From assembly GCF_003025005.1 (NCBI RefSeq), contig NZ_PVSS01000011.1, positions 1 through 64,000 of the forward strand: a DNA stretch of 64,000 bases, given 5' to 3'. Positions 19,813-55,614 of the stretch are shown here, in pieces. Within the stretch, counting starts at the first letter, position 1; each line of letters opens with the position of its first letter. The stretch comes from Brumimicrobium mesophilum (GTDB lineage Bacteria; Bacteroidota; Bacteroidia; Flavobacteriales_D; Crocinitomicaceae). Position numbers and translations under genes: made by a program. The notes beneath the pieces were generated by a model that saw only the letters and a program-made list of their open reading frames with translations, ran no database searches and had not been told where the DNA came from.

Positions 19813-19847
19813 TCGTCTCCCCCTTTGGAGGAGGCGGTGGGAGGATT
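19813..19847 (+). repeat. GC-rich palindromic repeat (family P), unit a
   Basis: CGTCTCCCCCTTTGGAGGAG is followed by a GGGAGGA block; the core CCCCCTTTGGAGG can fold on itself. Same family as 30264-30300. Confidence 0.75.
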
Positions 19848-19932: not shown

Positions 19933-19968
19933 GTCCTCCCCCTTTATCCCCCTCCAAAGGGGGAAACG
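19933..19968 (-). repeat. GC-rich palindromic repeat (family P), unit b, inverted
   Basis: TCCTCCCCCTTTATCCCCCT then CCAAAGGGGGAAA is the reverse complement of the family-P unit. It is followed by a GCTTCG motif, as at the copies near 30.2, 30.8 and 31.2 kb. Confidence 0.75.
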
Positions 19969-30107: not shown

Positions 30108-30152
30108 CGAGTTTTGAGGCGTTTCAAACTGATTGATTTCCTTCCACTGGAT

Positions 30153-30300
30153 TATCCTCCCCATGTATCGCCCTCCAAAGGGGGAAGTAGGGCTTCGCAA
30201 TCTTGCTTTTTTGCTTTAATTAAAAAAAGATAGTCCATTCTAAAAATTTTGGATTTAGTTGGTTTCGTCTCCCCCTTTGGAGGGGGGCAGGGGGGAGGAA
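30153..30300. repeat. Outward-facing family-P palindrome pair, module 1
   Basis: An inverted unit (30153-30187, with CCCTCCAAAGGGGGAA) and a direct unit (30264-30300, CGTCTCCCCCTTTGGAGGGG then CAGGGGGGAGGAA) are separated by a spacer with GGCTTCGCAA and TTGCTTTTTTGCTTTAAT. The same order and spacer recur at 30775-30920 and 31210-31375. It lies just upstream of the DUF559 gene. Confidence 0.85.
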
Positions 30301-30376
30301 ATCGTAGGAAAAACTATTTTCAAATATTCATTGAATTACCCCGTTTTTTAACTATCTTCAATTAAAACCACCACTT

Positions 30377-30754
30377 ATGAATAATCATTACAACCCTAAT
30401 TTAAAGAAAAACGCCAATGATTTAAGAAACATGACTGTTTCACGAGCAGAAAAATACTTGTGGAAAGCAGGTTTACGAAATAACCAACTCGGAGTTAAAT
30501 TCAAACGTCAACGGCCGATAACGAATTTCATTGTAGATTTTTTCAGTGCAGAAATAGGATTAATAATAGAAGTAGATGGTAGCTCCAATGATGCGAAAGG
30601 TTCGTATGATCGATACAGACAAGATAAATTAGAGTCTCTTGGCTATACCATAATTCGATTTCAAGAAGGAGAAGTGATTCATCGCTATCCTGATGTGGAA
30701 GATAAAATTATAAGAGCGATTGAAGTGTTGAAAAGTAGAAAAAGAGTAGATTGA
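30377..30754 (+). CDS. DUF559 endonuclease-like protein
   Basis: A 125-residue DUF559 protein related to the Vsr-like branch of PD-(D/E)XK nucleases. Visible features are SRAEKYLWKAGLRNNQLGVKFKRQRPI at 22-48, then FIVDFFSAEIGLIIEVDGSS with core Asp and Glu, DRYRQDKLESLGYTIIRFQE and a C-terminal helix. Family members are probable DNA endonucleases, and related domains act as homing endonucleases. Both sides are flanked by the same GC-rich palindrome pair, and a tandem truncated copy follows. This resembles repeat/enzyme cassettes such as REP/RAYT. Nuclease activity and any action on the repeats are inferred. Confidence 0.85.
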   Translation: MNNHYNPNLKKNANDLRNMTVSRAEKYLWKAGLRNNQLGVKFKRQRPITNFIVDFFSAEIGLIIEVDGSSNDAKGSYDRYRQDKLESLGYTIIRFQEGEVIHRYPDVEDKIIRAIEVLKSRKRVD

Positions 30755-30774
30755 GAATTCCTTTCACTGGATTG

Positions 30775-30920
30775 TCCTCCCCCTTTATCCCCCTCCAAAG
30801 GGGGAAATTGCGCTACGCAACTAAACTTTTCTATTTTAATAAATAAGATAATTCTAATCTTTAATCAATAAGACCAGATTGATTTCGTCTCCCCCTTCGG
30901 AGGGGGGCAGGGGGGAGGAT
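30775..30920. repeat. Outward-facing family-P palindrome pair, module 2
   Basis: An inverted unit at 30775-30806 and a direct unit at 30885-30920 (CCCCCTTCGGAGGGGGGCAG), with a spacer containing GCGCTACGCAA. It lies between the intact DUF559 gene and its truncated copy, 21 bp after the intact gene's stop. Confidence 0.85.
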
Positions 30921-30973
30921 ATCAAAGGAAGCACTATTTTTAAATGAATACTGAAAATCATTGAATTACCCTA

Positions 30974-31190
30974 TTTTTTCAGTGCAGAAATAGGATTAAT
31001 AATAGAAGTAGATGGTAGCTCACATGACGCGAAAGGTTTATATAATCGATACAGACAAGATAAATTAGAATCATTAGGCTGCACGGTTATTCGTTTTCAA
31101 GAAGGAGAAGTAATTCACCGCTACCCTGATGTAGAAAACACAATCATAAAAGCAATTGAAGTTTTGAAAAGTAGAAAAGGAGTAGATTGA
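30974..31190 (+). pseudogene. Truncated second copy of the DUF559 gene
   Basis: From the T run at 30974 to the TGA at 31188-31190 the frame encodes FFSAEIGLIIEVDGSSHDAK and on to KSRKGVD, matching residues 56-125 of the intact gene with scattered substitutions. No in-frame ATG precedes it. The upstream leader (ATTGAATTACCC) matches the intact gene's leader, so the missing 194 bp (start codon and N-terminal half) were lost between two TTTTTT runs. The remaining frame is intact, indicating recent decay. Confidence 0.88.
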
Positions 31191-31209
31191 GAATTCCTTC
31201 CACTGGATT

Positions 31210-31375
31210 ATCCTCCCCCTTTATCCCCCTCCAAAGGGGGAATTAGGGCTTCGCAACCTTGCTTTTTTGCTTTAATAAAAAAGCTAATTCCATTCTTATT
31301 CATCAAAACCAGATTGTTTTCATCTCCCCCTTTGGAGGGGGCTGGGGGGAGGAATGGGGGGAGGATTCTCCCAAC
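31210..31375. repeat. Outward-facing family-P palindrome pair, module 3
   Basis: An inverted unit at 31210-31243 and a direct unit at 31322-31353 with an extra GGGGGGAGGA tail to about 31365. The spacer contains GGCTTCGCAACCTTGC. It ends within a few bases of the stop codon of the convergent PKD-domain gene and may act as terminator for both sides. Confidence 0.85.
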
Positions 31376-31381
31376 TAAAAC

Positions 31382-34300
31382 TTAAATCTTCACAAACTCA
31401 ACTGCCTCAACATTCCCATCTCCTTCATAAACTATCCTGTAATTTCCATTCGCCCAGCTGCTTGTTTCCAATACAAAAACGGTCAAGCCTTTATCTAATG
31501 CTTGTTTATCTGAAATTACATGGATTATTTTTCCAAGGTTGTTATACACTTTTAATGTAACCGCTCCTTTTTTAGGCATTACAAGCTTAATCGTTAATTG
31601 GTCTTTTACAGGATTAGGATAAGGATTGATGATTACCGCTTGATTTTCAGTCATTGTTTTACACACCTCGTTATTCGTCAAATCTTCCTCAATAAACTGC
31701 ACTGGTTGAATAATCTCTCCATTCACACATAAATAGTTTTGAATGGTGTCTTCTGCTGGTATTTGAGCGCTTGGAGATGCTGAGAAAATGTAAATTTCTT
31801 CCTCGTTGGCCTGTAACATTCCAGACCAAGTTTCTTTGATGGATCCAGTGTTTGGACTCTGAGAAATTAAATCAACTTCTGTAATTGGAGTCGTCCCTTT
31901 GTTTTTTAATCGAACTGCTATCGTTAGGAATCCATTGATTTCCTGACTAAACAATTGAGAAATTTCTAAATCTGTTCTTTGATCTAAAACTGGTAATTCT
32001 ATACGCATACTATCTACACAGTTCCATTCGTTTTCTACTTTCAACTGCACAATTTGGGTCGTTCCAATCTGACTTTCTTCAAACACTATACTTGTGTCTG
32101 CTTGTTGAGAAGTCGCGAAATTTCCAAAACTCCACAAATATTCGTTGGCTCCTGAGCCTGTACTTTCAAAAACAATTGGATAATCTGTGATAAATGCTCC
32201 AGGTGTAAAAGTGAAATCAGCATTTAAAAAAGGGTTAATCGTAACATCTGAAACATTAGCATTAATGCATCCAAAACTAGAGGTCACTTCATGCTCCAAT
32301 TCATAAATACCACTATTGGAAAAGTTATTGGTGATATTAAATCCATTTAAAGGTGCTTGGTTATCAAATCTCCAACTCACTTGTGCAACACTCCCATTCG
32401 GAACAAATGATGCGTCTATAAATGAAGTTTCTAATCCTGCACAATTCTGATCAACAGAATGTTGAACTTGAGGAGTGGCGTGTATTTTTACAGTTTGTGT
32501 GATACTATTACTACAGCCATTATCTGAATTAACCAGTAATTCAACATCGTAAATTCCATGCGAACTGTAAGGTTTTTGAGGATTGTTTTGAGTTGACGCT
32601 GTTCCATCTCCAAAATCCCACAGCTTTCCAGTTATTACAGCTGGAGCTACGATTGTAGAAGTATTTTGGAAGTTTACGATACTGCCTTCACATACTTCAT
32701 CGAAAATGAAATCAGCAGTAGGTGCAGGAACGATATTTATGGTTTGAATTAATGAATCTACACAGCCAAAAACATCTGTTCCGACCAACAATACATCAAA
32801 ATCTCCGTCATCATTAAAAGTATGAGATGTATTTTGACCATTTGCAGTGTTCTCAATTCCGCTTGAAGGATCTGCAAAATTCCAATCCCAACTTGAAATA
32901 GTTGTTGGACTAATTTGACCTCCACTAAATAAAATACCTTCAAATTGACATTGGTTGGTAGTTGCAAAAGTCAACATCGGGTTTTCTTTCACCTCGATTG
33001 TTTGCGTTAGTTTGTTGAAACAACCCGAAGACGTTTCTATGATTAAATCTATGTCGTACATTCCACTATTTGAATAAGCATGATTACCTGTGGCAACAGT
33101 TGAACTGTCTCCATCTCCAAACGCCCATGTCCAACCAATTATTGTTGAGCCGTCTGTGGTAGAGGAAAGGTCTGAGAAGTTTATCGGAGCGTTTACGCAA
33201 GCATTGCTTGGAATTTGCATTTGAACGATTGGTGCATCACCTGTTATGATCACGTCAATAGTGTCTTTTGCTTCGCAACCGTTTGCATTTTGAACGATTA
33301 CACTATAAGTTCCTGAGGTATTAATCTCCAATTGAGGAGTTGTTTCTGCTGTGTTCCAAAGGTAACTTGTTGCGCTACTTGCTCCAGAACTTAGAACAAT
33401 ATCATTTCCTGAGCACATTGTGGTGTCTGGACCTAATGTTGCTGTGGTTGCAAATATATCTTCAGTGAAATTTAATGTATCTGATGCGAATATACAACCG
33501 TTGGTGTCTGTGACTACAACATGTACATCTCCAGGAGAATCGATGATCAAAGTATCACCAGTTGAAAAGTCCGACCAGAGGTAGGAATAATTTAGGCCTA
33601 AGTTGGTGTTCCAAATTATTGAATCGTTGGAGCAGTATTGGTTGGAAAGAGGGTAGTTTAATTGACCCAAGTTTACTTTAATAGTATCTCTTGAAATGAA
33701 ACCAAAAACATCTTCAACTTCAACCCAATATGTTCCTGAAGAATTAACAACTAAACTATCTGCAATGGATCCATCTGACCACAAATAGGACTCAAATCTT
33801 TCACCAGCGTAAATAGTGGTGTCGCAAAAACCGTATTTGGAGATATTTGCACCTAGGTTGGTTGGTGGTGCATATTTATGACGAAGATATTCATGTGTTA
33901 ACTCACGCAACGAATCGGAAAGTTTAACATTAAAAAGAATTATTTCTCCTATTTCGCCATCCATGAAATGACTTCCTGTGGAACGGCCTAAAAACACTGT
34001 TGTATTGAAAGACGGTGCACCAACAGCGGTAGAGAAAAATGAATCACTGTTTATTCTAAAATCGAAAGTAGATCCAGAGTTAATATTTAAGATGTGAGGC
34101 TTTTTTAAGTCGATGGAATTAGAAATATCACCTATTGTGAATCGTGTAGCTCTTCCAAAACCAGAATAAACAACATTATTATTGTAAGGATAATGATCTT
34201 GAGAGGCAGATGTTCCAAAAGACCACAAGCCACTTGTTGAAGCAGAAGTTGCAGGAGTATTTTTGAGTTTAATTAATGAAAAAATTTCAGCATTAGCTAG

Positions 34301-34876
34301 GCTGGAAAAGTCAATCGGCTGAAAGAAGTTTGGGCCACTTGGTTGAAATTCAACCATGTTATGGTTATTTATACTGTTTTGAGCAGGTAGCAAATAAGGT
34401 TGGTTACTAGGTGATGATTGTAAATAACTATTTGAATTTCCGGATAAATCATTCCATTCGGCAATTCTATTTCCTGAAACTGTTTGAACACTATCTGCTT
34501 TTAACCACATTTCCAATTGGCTAAACCCTGTGAAATCTACAATTCTAAATGAACGTACTTCCGACCAGGAACTGTTGTTAGCCTTACTTCTCCAATAAAA
34601 CTGAGTGTTACTTGGAAGTTGAGAGGATGTGAAATTTGTGAGGGTTAAGGAAGTAGCGTTTTCTACTAACGTACTGAAATTAGCACTTGTTGAAATCTGA
34701 AAATCGTAACTAGAAGCATTTGGAACAGAGTTCCATTCAAAATAAATTGTAGTACTATCAAAAACATAGTTTGCTTTAGGGAAAACTAAACCAGGTTGTG
34801 CAAAAGTTGCTAAGCTAGAAAGCAATATTACTAACGGTATTATTATTAGATTTTTGAACATAATTAAGTTATTCAA
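31382..34876 (-). CDS. Large secreted PKD/LamG-like protein with T9SS type A sorting domain
   Basis: An 1164-residue secreted protein. The ATG at 34861 (MFKNLIIIPLVILL) may be the better start because it gives a cleaner signal peptide ending TFAQ. Next come a fibronectin-III-like strand set (about 25-110), a concanavalin/LamG-like domain (about 118-340, FMDGEIGEIILFN), Ig-like segments with paired cysteines (about 345-550), and four PKD domains (WAFGDGDSS, WNFADPSSG, LWDFGDGTAS, SWRFDNQAP; about 555-890). It ends in a type A T9SS sorting domain (NPYPNPVKDQLTIKL ... NGNYRIVYEGDG) over the last 80 residues. It is probably a surface adhesin or matrix protein; no enzymatic motif was seen. Confidence 0.88.
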   Translation of the reverse strand: MNNLIMFKNLIIIPLVILLSSLATFAQPGLVFPKANYVFDSTTIYFEWNSVPNASSYDFQISTSANFSTLVENATSLTLTNFTSSQLPSNTQFYWRSKANNSSWSEVRSFRIVDFTGFSQLEMWLKADSVQTVSGNRIAEWNDLSGNSNSYLQSSPSNQPYLLPAQNSINNHNMVEFQPSGPNFFQPIDFSSLANAEIFSLIKLKNTPATSASTSGLWSFGTSASQDHYPYNNNVVYSGFGRATRFTIGDISNSIDLKKPHILNINSGSTFDFRINSDSFFSTAVGAPSFNTTVFLGRSTGSHFMDGEIGEIILFNVKLSDSLRELTHEYLRHKYAPPTNLGANISKYGFCDTTIYAGERFESYLWSDGSIADSLVVNSSGTYWVEVEDVFGFISRDTIKVNLGQLNYPLSNQYCSNDSIIWNTNLGLNYSYLWSDFSTGDTLIIDSPGDVHVVVTDTNGCIFASDTLNFTEDIFATTATLGPDTTMCSGNDIVLSSGASSATSYLWNTAETTPQLEINTSGTYSVIVQNANGCEAKDTIDVIITGDAPIVQMQIPSNACVNAPINFSDLSSTTDGSTIIGWTWAFGDGDSSTVATGNHAYSNSGMYDIDLIIETSSGCFNKLTQTIEVKENPMLTFATTNQCQFEGILFSGGQISPTTISSWDWNFADPSSGIENTANGQNTSHTFNDDGDFDVLLVGTDVFGCVDSLIQTINIVPAPTADFIFDEVCEGSIVNFQNTSTIVAPAVITGKLWDFGDGTASTQNNPQKPYSSHGIYDVELLVNSDNGCSNSITQTVKIHATPQVQHSVDQNCAGLETSFIDASFVPNGSVAQVSWRFDNQAPLNGFNITNNFSNSGIYELEHEVTSSFGCINANVSDVTINPFLNADFTFTPGAFITDYPIVFESTGSGANEYLWSFGNFATSQQADTSIVFEESQIGTTQIVQLKVENEWNCVDSMRIELPVLDQRTDLEISQLFSQEINGFLTIAVRLKNKGTTPITEVDLISQSPNTGSIKETWSGMLQANEEEIYIFSASPSAQIPAEDTIQNYLCVNGEIIQPVQFIEEDLTNNEVCKTMTENQAVIINPYPNPVKDQLTIKLVMPKKGAVTLKVYNNLGKIIHVISDKQALDKGLTVFVLETSSWANGNYRIVYEGDGNVEAVEFVKI

Positions 34877-55579: not shown

Positions 55580-55614
55580 TTCTCCCTTGGGAGGGAGATA
55601 AAGAGGGAGGACAC
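55580..55614 (+). repeat. Decayed family-P palindromic repeat
   Basis: TTCTCCCTTGGGAGGGAGAT followed by AAAGAGGGAGGACA keeps the spacing of family P but has lost part of the C and G runs. Confidence 0.55.

Follow-up and report, generated by a model that had tools for sequence, protein, structure and literature searches.

DUF559 nucleases and class II intrastrand triplex motifs as a candidate REP/RAYT-like mobile partnership in bacteria

Homing endonucleases of the Vsr type spread selfishly by cutting DNA, and the homing endonuclease I-Bth0305I is set in an intron. Palindromic elements of Rickettsia are inserted in frame in coding genes; to our knowledge they encode no nuclease. REP/REPIN repeats and their RAYT enzymes, which serve as a comparison below, are treated in PMC6006769 and PMC3733652. 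Another class of repeats, described in E. coli since the 1990s as BoxC, PIT or triplex motifs (TM_ECO), has no known function according to the E. coli study (PMC4666352). The same study states that E. coli sequences of this class form a stable triplex in vitro and that in vivo footprinting gave no stable triplex, and it reports no mobility genes near the E. coli sites (PMC4666352).

The window analyzed here is the whole stretch of 64,000 nucleotides from Brumimicrobium mesophilum, whose genome (G000) is 3.88 Mb long. It contains a stand-alone DUF559 gene (Table 1), which matched the PF04480 profile with an E value of 1.2e-26 and 93.1 bits against a curated cut-off of 20.6. Two DUF559 matches were found genome-wide, both at this locus. 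Three inverted palindrome pairs (30155-30299, 30775-30919 and 31211-31353) are arranged around the gene, and a 300-nt direct repeat, 86% identical, encloses a truncated DUF559 copy. The first-pass annotation had described such a module of inverted palindrome pairs, a DUF559 gene and a truncated second copy, and all of its parts were found in place. The spacer sequence that it gave, CTTCGCAA, occurs unchanged in spacers 1 and 3, but in spacer 2 it reads CTACGCAA. Likewise, the palindrome pairs that it took for the repeat are real, but the repeated unit is larger and includes a G-rich 3′ tail in mirror symmetry with the purine arm; it is a triplex motif (TM).

Table 1. DUF559 genes and TM units in the window
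Feature	Position	Strand	Basis
Stand-alone DUF559 (PF04480) nuclease gene, 125 aa	30377..30754	+	profile match, alignment
Second DUF559 copy, 5′-truncated, no start; keeps H (SSHD)	about 30975..31190	+	sequence comparison
TM unit, pair 1 left, decayed	30155..30185	-	sequence reading, 16-mer search
TM unit, pair 1 right, tail facing gene	30270..30299	+	reading + triplex scan
TM unit, pair 2 left, tail facing gene, second loop TAA	30775..30805	-	reading + triplex scan
TM unit, pair 2 right	30890..30919	+	reading + triplex scan
TM unit, pair 3 left, second loop TAA	31211..31241	-	reading + triplex scan
TM unit, pair 3 right, second loop CTG	31325..31353	+	reading + triplex scan
TM unit remote from DUF559 gene	19936..19964	-	16-mer search + triplex scan

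When up to two mismatches are allowed, a 16-mer from the window matches at 8 places in the 64 kb (0.01 expected). Scanning the window for triplex motifs revealed 7 units, 5 of them at the DUF559 locus; none of 20 dinucleotide shuffles contained any. The scan misses the left unit of pair 1, whose palindrome carries one mismatch. The palindrome CCCCCTTYGGAGGGGG is found at 13 exact places in the genome, including 6 in the window, 5 of which are at the DUF559 locus. The arms of the window units are CCCCCT/AGGGGG. Degenerate plus-strand units near 19819 and 20058 adjoin the remote unit, and a further perfect TM-like unit, TCTCCCT-TGGG-AGGGAGA-TAA-AGAGGGA, lies at 55581-55608, far from the DUF559 gene.

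The unit is composed, in this order, of a pyrimidine arm, a loop, a purine arm, a short second loop (often 3 nt) and a purine tail. A purine-motif triplex requires a mirror repeat of purines (PMC4666352). In a set of 130 distinct purine-tailed units from 46 genomes, the tail tends to mirror the purine arm: AGGAGGGA goes with AGGGAGGT, AGGGGAGA with AGAGGGGT and AGGGAGGA with AGGAGGGT, and, more rarely, AAGAGGGA (2 units) with AGGGAGAT and AGGGAAGA (1 unit) with AGAAGGGT. Mirror and direct tails can be told apart by asymmetric arms only, and a direct-repeat tail model also scores at 49/58 loci, on symmetric arms. Among 102 units with asymmetric arms, 50 fit better as a mirror, 15 better as a direct repeat and 37 are ties; nine of the 15 direct-fitting units have AAGGGGGA arms, and their tails depart from the mirror by T over A, which is permitted in the purine-motif type of triplex. 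In the mirror register, changes in the purine arm are matched by changes in the tail: column pairs from 105 units, which are sequence counts rather than independent events, are G/G 492, A/A 155, A/G 17, G/A 27, A/T 2 and G/T 2, with an odds ratio of 166 compared to 1.8 in the direct register.

By its sequence, the repeat belongs to the class II intrastrand triplex motifs, which in E. coli go by the names BoxC, PIT or TM_ECO, and it appears capable of forming a triple helix. The window units do not fit the TM_ECO consensus CCCTCNCCC N3-6 GGGNGAGGG N3 GGGNGAGGG, as given in PMC4666352. In inverted pairs of the E. coli motif, according to the same source, one unit has a TTA second loop (type A) and the other a CCG second loop (type B). 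The second loops of 28 inverted pairs analyzed here are varied, the commonest combinations being TTA with TCG (3), TTA with CCG (2) and CCG with CTA (2). By eye, some TM tails possibly resemble the 16S rRNA 3′ end.

A structure model of the window protein with 11 of 12 relatives (pLDDT 83.7) was compared with known structures. It matched the DUF559-type protein 3HRL with Z 17.1, the homing endonuclease I-Bth0305I (PDB 3r3p) with Z 13.6 (rmsd 2.7 over 94 residues) and Vsr with Z of about 10. The predicted DUF559 fold is that of Vsr and I-Bth0305I, in agreement with the initial assignment of DUF559 to the Vsr/PD-(D/E)XK nuclease group with homing relatives. Residues E65, D67, D78 and R81 are near-invariant in the aligned DUF559 proteins, and the window gene has E65 and D67. 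Among the 53 aligned rows, one of which is the window protein, 51 have the near-invariant H at residue 71; the window protein has N. We take E65, D67 and H71 to be the catalytic residues. With N in place of H71 the window gene copy may be inactive, and with one such gene and one truncated gene the DUF559/TM copy of the window looks decayed.

Profile search found DUF559 in 66 of the 150 genomes of the family. Of 96 matches, 91 were scanned for TMs: 58 stand-alone (frames of 110-200 aa), 22 long, 8 truncated and 3 with stops. The five left out were a duplicate fragment in G014, the truncated copy of the window, the second half of a fragment in G024, a weak long match in G109 and a 124-aa frame in G023; palindromes lie 83 bp from the latter. 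With distances counted from the domain edges, a TM was present within 400 bp of 53/58 stand-alone genes, five having no nearby TM. A simple count of C4..G4 palindromes gave 44/58, and a triplex scan from the ORF edges 51/58; scanner settings vary among scans, with a minimum arm of 7, not 6, in the scans of other Bacteroidota and of the plasmid collection. TM density around stand-alone genes was 5.2 per kb at 0-200 bp and 0.019 per kb at 1.5-2.5 kb. The nearest upstream unit was in plus orientation, with its tail toward the gene, in 40/47 cases, and the nearest downstream unit was in minus orientation in 40/45, so that the gene is flanked by inverted units with tails inward. Among the remaining frames of the family, a TM was found within 400 bp of 5/8 truncated, 2/3 stop-containing and 4/22 long ones.

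As controls, three other gene families from the same 150 genomes were scanned with the same scanner, mostly at best-scoring loci rather than random draws. No TM was found within 400 bp of PF13366 nuclease genes (0/30), PF05635 genes (0/30) or Y1_Tnp/RAYT genes (0/20), in total 0/80 (Fisher p 8e-33 for the comparison with DUF559, ignoring relatedness). These families replaced long-frame DUF559 genes, which were rejected as a negative control (TM near 4/22 in the family and 11/11 in other Bacteroidota) because of the in-frame cassettes within other genes. The first-pass annotation had suggested checking whether DUF559 genes are nearer to the repeat than other small genes, which they are (53/58 versus 0/80), and its proposal of a nuclease-repeat partnership with a REP/RAYT-like layout is strongly supported by these numbers and by the repeats being commoner in genomes with DUF559.

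The Y1_Tnp loci bear on another reading, in which the repeats would be the REPs of a Y1 transposase, with DUF559 as a bystander. Y1_Tnp matches are indeed present in 97/150 genomes of the family, but the 20 loci scanned were all free of TMs within 400 bp, and several carry their own hairpins. This reading is largely refuted and retains hardly any probability. Within 600 bp, four of the 20 loci have C4..G4 hairpins of a different sort. Loci L193, L202, L203 and L194 have their own hairpin families, e.g. CGACTCC..GGAGTCG. A palindrome of G086 located 2.7 kb from a Y1 gene was considered as a RAYT link and rejected, since it lies inside leuS.

The DUF559-TM link recurs in other Bacteroidota, Proteobacteria, Cyanobacteria and Deinococcus. 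In other families of Bacteroidota, a TM lies no more than 400 bp from the domain in 28 of 39 stand-alone genes (19 best-scoring and 20 hand-chosen) and is lacking at this distance in 11; for long frames, taken from best-scoring loci, the count is 11/11. A plasmid collection yielded 32 records with a DUF559 match, of which 23 were examined and one, a long frame, was excluded. Outside Bacteroidota, a TM lies within 400 bp in 17 of these 22 plasmid-collection records, namely those of Neisseria, Synechocystis (2), Pseudanabaena, Azospirillum (3), Sphingomonas (2), Qipengyuania, Deinococcus (4), Photobacterium, E. coli and Shinella (weak). No TM was found within this distance in five: Picosynechococcus (2), Sinorhizobium, Novosphingobium and Methylobacterium. 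The TM background is higher in the plasmid set, at 0.1-0.5 per kb beyond 400 bp versus 4.3 at 0-200 bp. Cyanobacterial plasmid genes (L257, L258, L259, L260 and L262) are located near BREX-, DUF1156- or DUF499-type genes; two of them, from Picosynechococcus, are without TMs.

In E. coli K-12, the DUF559 gene ycjD (1351407-1351760) lies about 168 bp from TM_ECO no. 9 (1351204-1351239). K-12 has 18 TM sites in its 4.64 Mb, so that a TM would lie this close (within 200 bp) by chance in about 0.3% of cases. In E. coli KE47, TMs are present at two places beside ycjD. The PF04480 profile search gave no match in the E. coli control genome, and two records of a phage collection match the DUF559 protein.

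Next, the type of TM was compared with the phylogeny of 53 DUF559 proteins that have a TM nearby. Mapped on the protein tree, the GAGGGGG-type label requires 5 changes, compared to 17.1 in shuffles, and none of 500 shuffles was as low. A clade of 29 proteins (support 99/97) contains 28 other-type loci, and 21 of the remaining 24 rows are GAGGGGG-type loci. Seven genomes hold two or three such genes. Three of these, G059, G117 and G074, have one gene in each protein group and two TM types, each gene with its own type; G079, G066 and G010 have a single clade only; and in G149 both TM types are found within one clade, its GAGGGGG-type locus falling in the other protein clade. Across genera, proteins that are more alike tend to have TMs that are more alike (rho 0.28, p 0.001). 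Different arm types coexist within some loci, and the match between left and right TMs is modest (0.82 versus 0.747 in shuffles, the largest shuffle giving 0.827). TM type thus follows protein clade, imperfectly, a correspondence beyond what the first-pass annotation foresaw. Given this match of nuclease type and repeat type and the adjacency of the two, nuclease and repeat probably spread together.

The same results count against a methylation-linked repair role of Vsr kind, in which DUF559 would repair T:G mismatches and TMs would be incidental substrates. Such a role has been proposed for the DUF559-domain protein VsrA of Caulobacter (PMC12907096), but it predicts neither adjacency nor orientation nor a match between TM type and protein clade, and we consider it very improbable.

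DUF559 genes interrupt operons, being found between sufB and sufC and inside hpa and paa clusters. In long frames, the DUF559 domain lies in frame within host genes, with TM or TM-like flanks. The hosts, named by eye from sequence, are metH (L029, L228, L234), leuS (L030, L208, L211), hsdR-like and methylase-like genes, and the metH and leuS inserts occupy linkers of methionine synthase and leucyl-tRNA synthetase. At the metH locus L029 no unit passed the TM scan. Solo TMs without DUF559 are present in frame in leuS of G094 and G086 (2/13 genomes), where the interval between NWIGKS and TTRPDT is 43 residues long, compared to 31-34 in the 11 others. A solo TM also lies in frame in ileS of G102 and G094 (2/8), replacing a variable linker with a net difference of about 3 residues relative to G000, and another lies in a methylase-like gene of G006 (L115/L309), encoding PPLEGGRGED. 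Because relatives are without the unit, insertion or replacement is the simplest reading. No target-site duplication was found at TM or cassette insertions.

These locations also bear on a house-keeping role, in which DUF559 would be a repair nuclease resolving stalled TM structures and the TMs near its gene would be regulatory sites. The predicted Vsr-like fold is consistent with repair, and VsrA has been linked to DNA damage in Caulobacter (PMC12907096), but DUF559 is patchily distributed (66/150 genomes), and regulation fails to explain in-frame cassettes in leuS, metH and hsdR-like genes or a gene between sufB and sufC. We regard such a role as improbable.

The palindrome CCCCCTNNNNAGGGGG was found in 48/53 genomes with a short DUF559 frame, in 7/13 with a longer frame only and in 32/84 without a DUF559 match (counts uncorrected for phylogeny); its total of 742 compares to 17 for a reversed control pattern. 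Five or more palindromes are kept by 16 of the 84 DUF559-free genomes, with 23 copies in G067 and 20 in G088; completeness is 99-100% for 10 of the 16. The repeats therefore outlive the gene or can do without it in the same genome. As to whether repeats are equally abundant in genomes lacking DUF559, a point raised at the outset, they are commoner with the gene (48/53 versus 32/84), but they also occur without it, and the 16 gene-free genomes with five or more copies speak against the partnership. At L103 and L104 of G067 (99% complete, no DUF559 match), tandem TM copies lie 64 bp apart. Locus L106 of G094 has three palindrome pairs, 5/6 units of which pass the TM scan, adjoining a PKD-type gene that by eye resembles the gene at 31382-34876 of the window; tblastn found no DUF559 remnant between these palindrome pairs.

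The presence of TMs without a DUF559 match in several 99-100% complete genomes would be expected by the main rival explanation, that TMs are spread by errors of host replication or repair and that DUF559 genes land or persist at TMs because these are breakage-prone sites. TMs have been linked to instability in E. coli (PMC4666352). However, similar-sized small genes of the same genome set were at TMs in 0/80 loci, the inward orientation of tails is mostly constant, and TM type goes with protein clade, in three cases even between two genes of the same genome. We consider this explanation unlikely, though less so than the other three.

The best reading of the data is a mobile partnership of REP/RAYT kind, made from an unrelated nuclease and an unrelated repeat. 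Specifically, we propose, with a probability of roughly 0.65, that stand-alone DUF559 proteins are Vsr/homing-type PD-(D/E)XK nucleases that act as partners of class II intrastrand TMs in a selfish or mobile system. Adjacency, orientation, mirror covariation, the match between TM type and clade, occurrence in several phyla and presence inside conserved genes were all observed directly; cutting and copying are the parts that we infer. The autonomous unit would be a DUF559 gene between inverted TMs, and scattered single TMs and inverted TM pairs would be its non-autonomous progeny. A single-stranded TM, e.g. at a replication fork, would fold into a hairpin plus third strand. The cognate nuclease would recognize this fold or its foot and break DNA there or at new targets, and repair that copies the TM, or the whole TM-gene-TM cassette, would spread it.

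A broader proposal, to which we would give even odds, is that DUF559 and TMs make up one widespread mobile repeat class, present in at least Bacteroidota, Proteobacteria, Cyanobacteria and Deinococcota, and that E. coli BoxC/PIT are non-autonomous offspring of YcjD-type nucleases, which recognize the folded triplex and cause it to be copied, essential genes being among the places it enters. The partnership gives the BoxC/PIT/triplex-motif family a partner enzyme and hence a testable origin, and the large DUF559 nuclease family a candidate function. It also presents a possible natural example of DNA-triplex recognition by a protein, and co-spread of nuclease and TM could explain an E. coli repeat family without a known role.

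No paper treating DUF559 and triplex together was found in the open-licence PMC literature, nor did any of the titles listed there for DUF559 or for ycjD/boxC concern the DUF559-TM pairing. The DUF559 proteins share the modelled fold of I-Bth0305I; their genes here either stand alone between repeats or form in-frame fusions with host genes. Like Rickettsia palindromic elements, TMs are palindromic elements found in frame in coding genes, but their sequence is different. The likeness to BoxC/PIT/TM_ECO extends to the class II order, the frequent 3-nt second loop (TTA and CCG among others), the inverted pairs and the often intergenic location, whereas the arm sequences differ in Bacteroidota, and the E. 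coli paper gave no partner gene (PMC4666352). As in REP/REPIN with RAYT (TnpA-REP, REPtron), a gene for a single-domain DNA enzyme is flanked by inverted short structured repeats, the repeats are scattered as singles and inverted pairs, and repeat type goes with enzyme clade. In contrast to REP/RAYT, the enzyme is a PD-(D/E)XK nuclease of Vsr type, as modelled, and not a Y1 HUH transposase, and the repeat is a mirror-symmetric triplex motif, with the GT[AG]G foot absent from the window units by reading. Such a partnership, built from an unrelated enzyme and an unrelated repeat, suggests that REP/RAYT-like partnerships evolved at least twice in bacteria.
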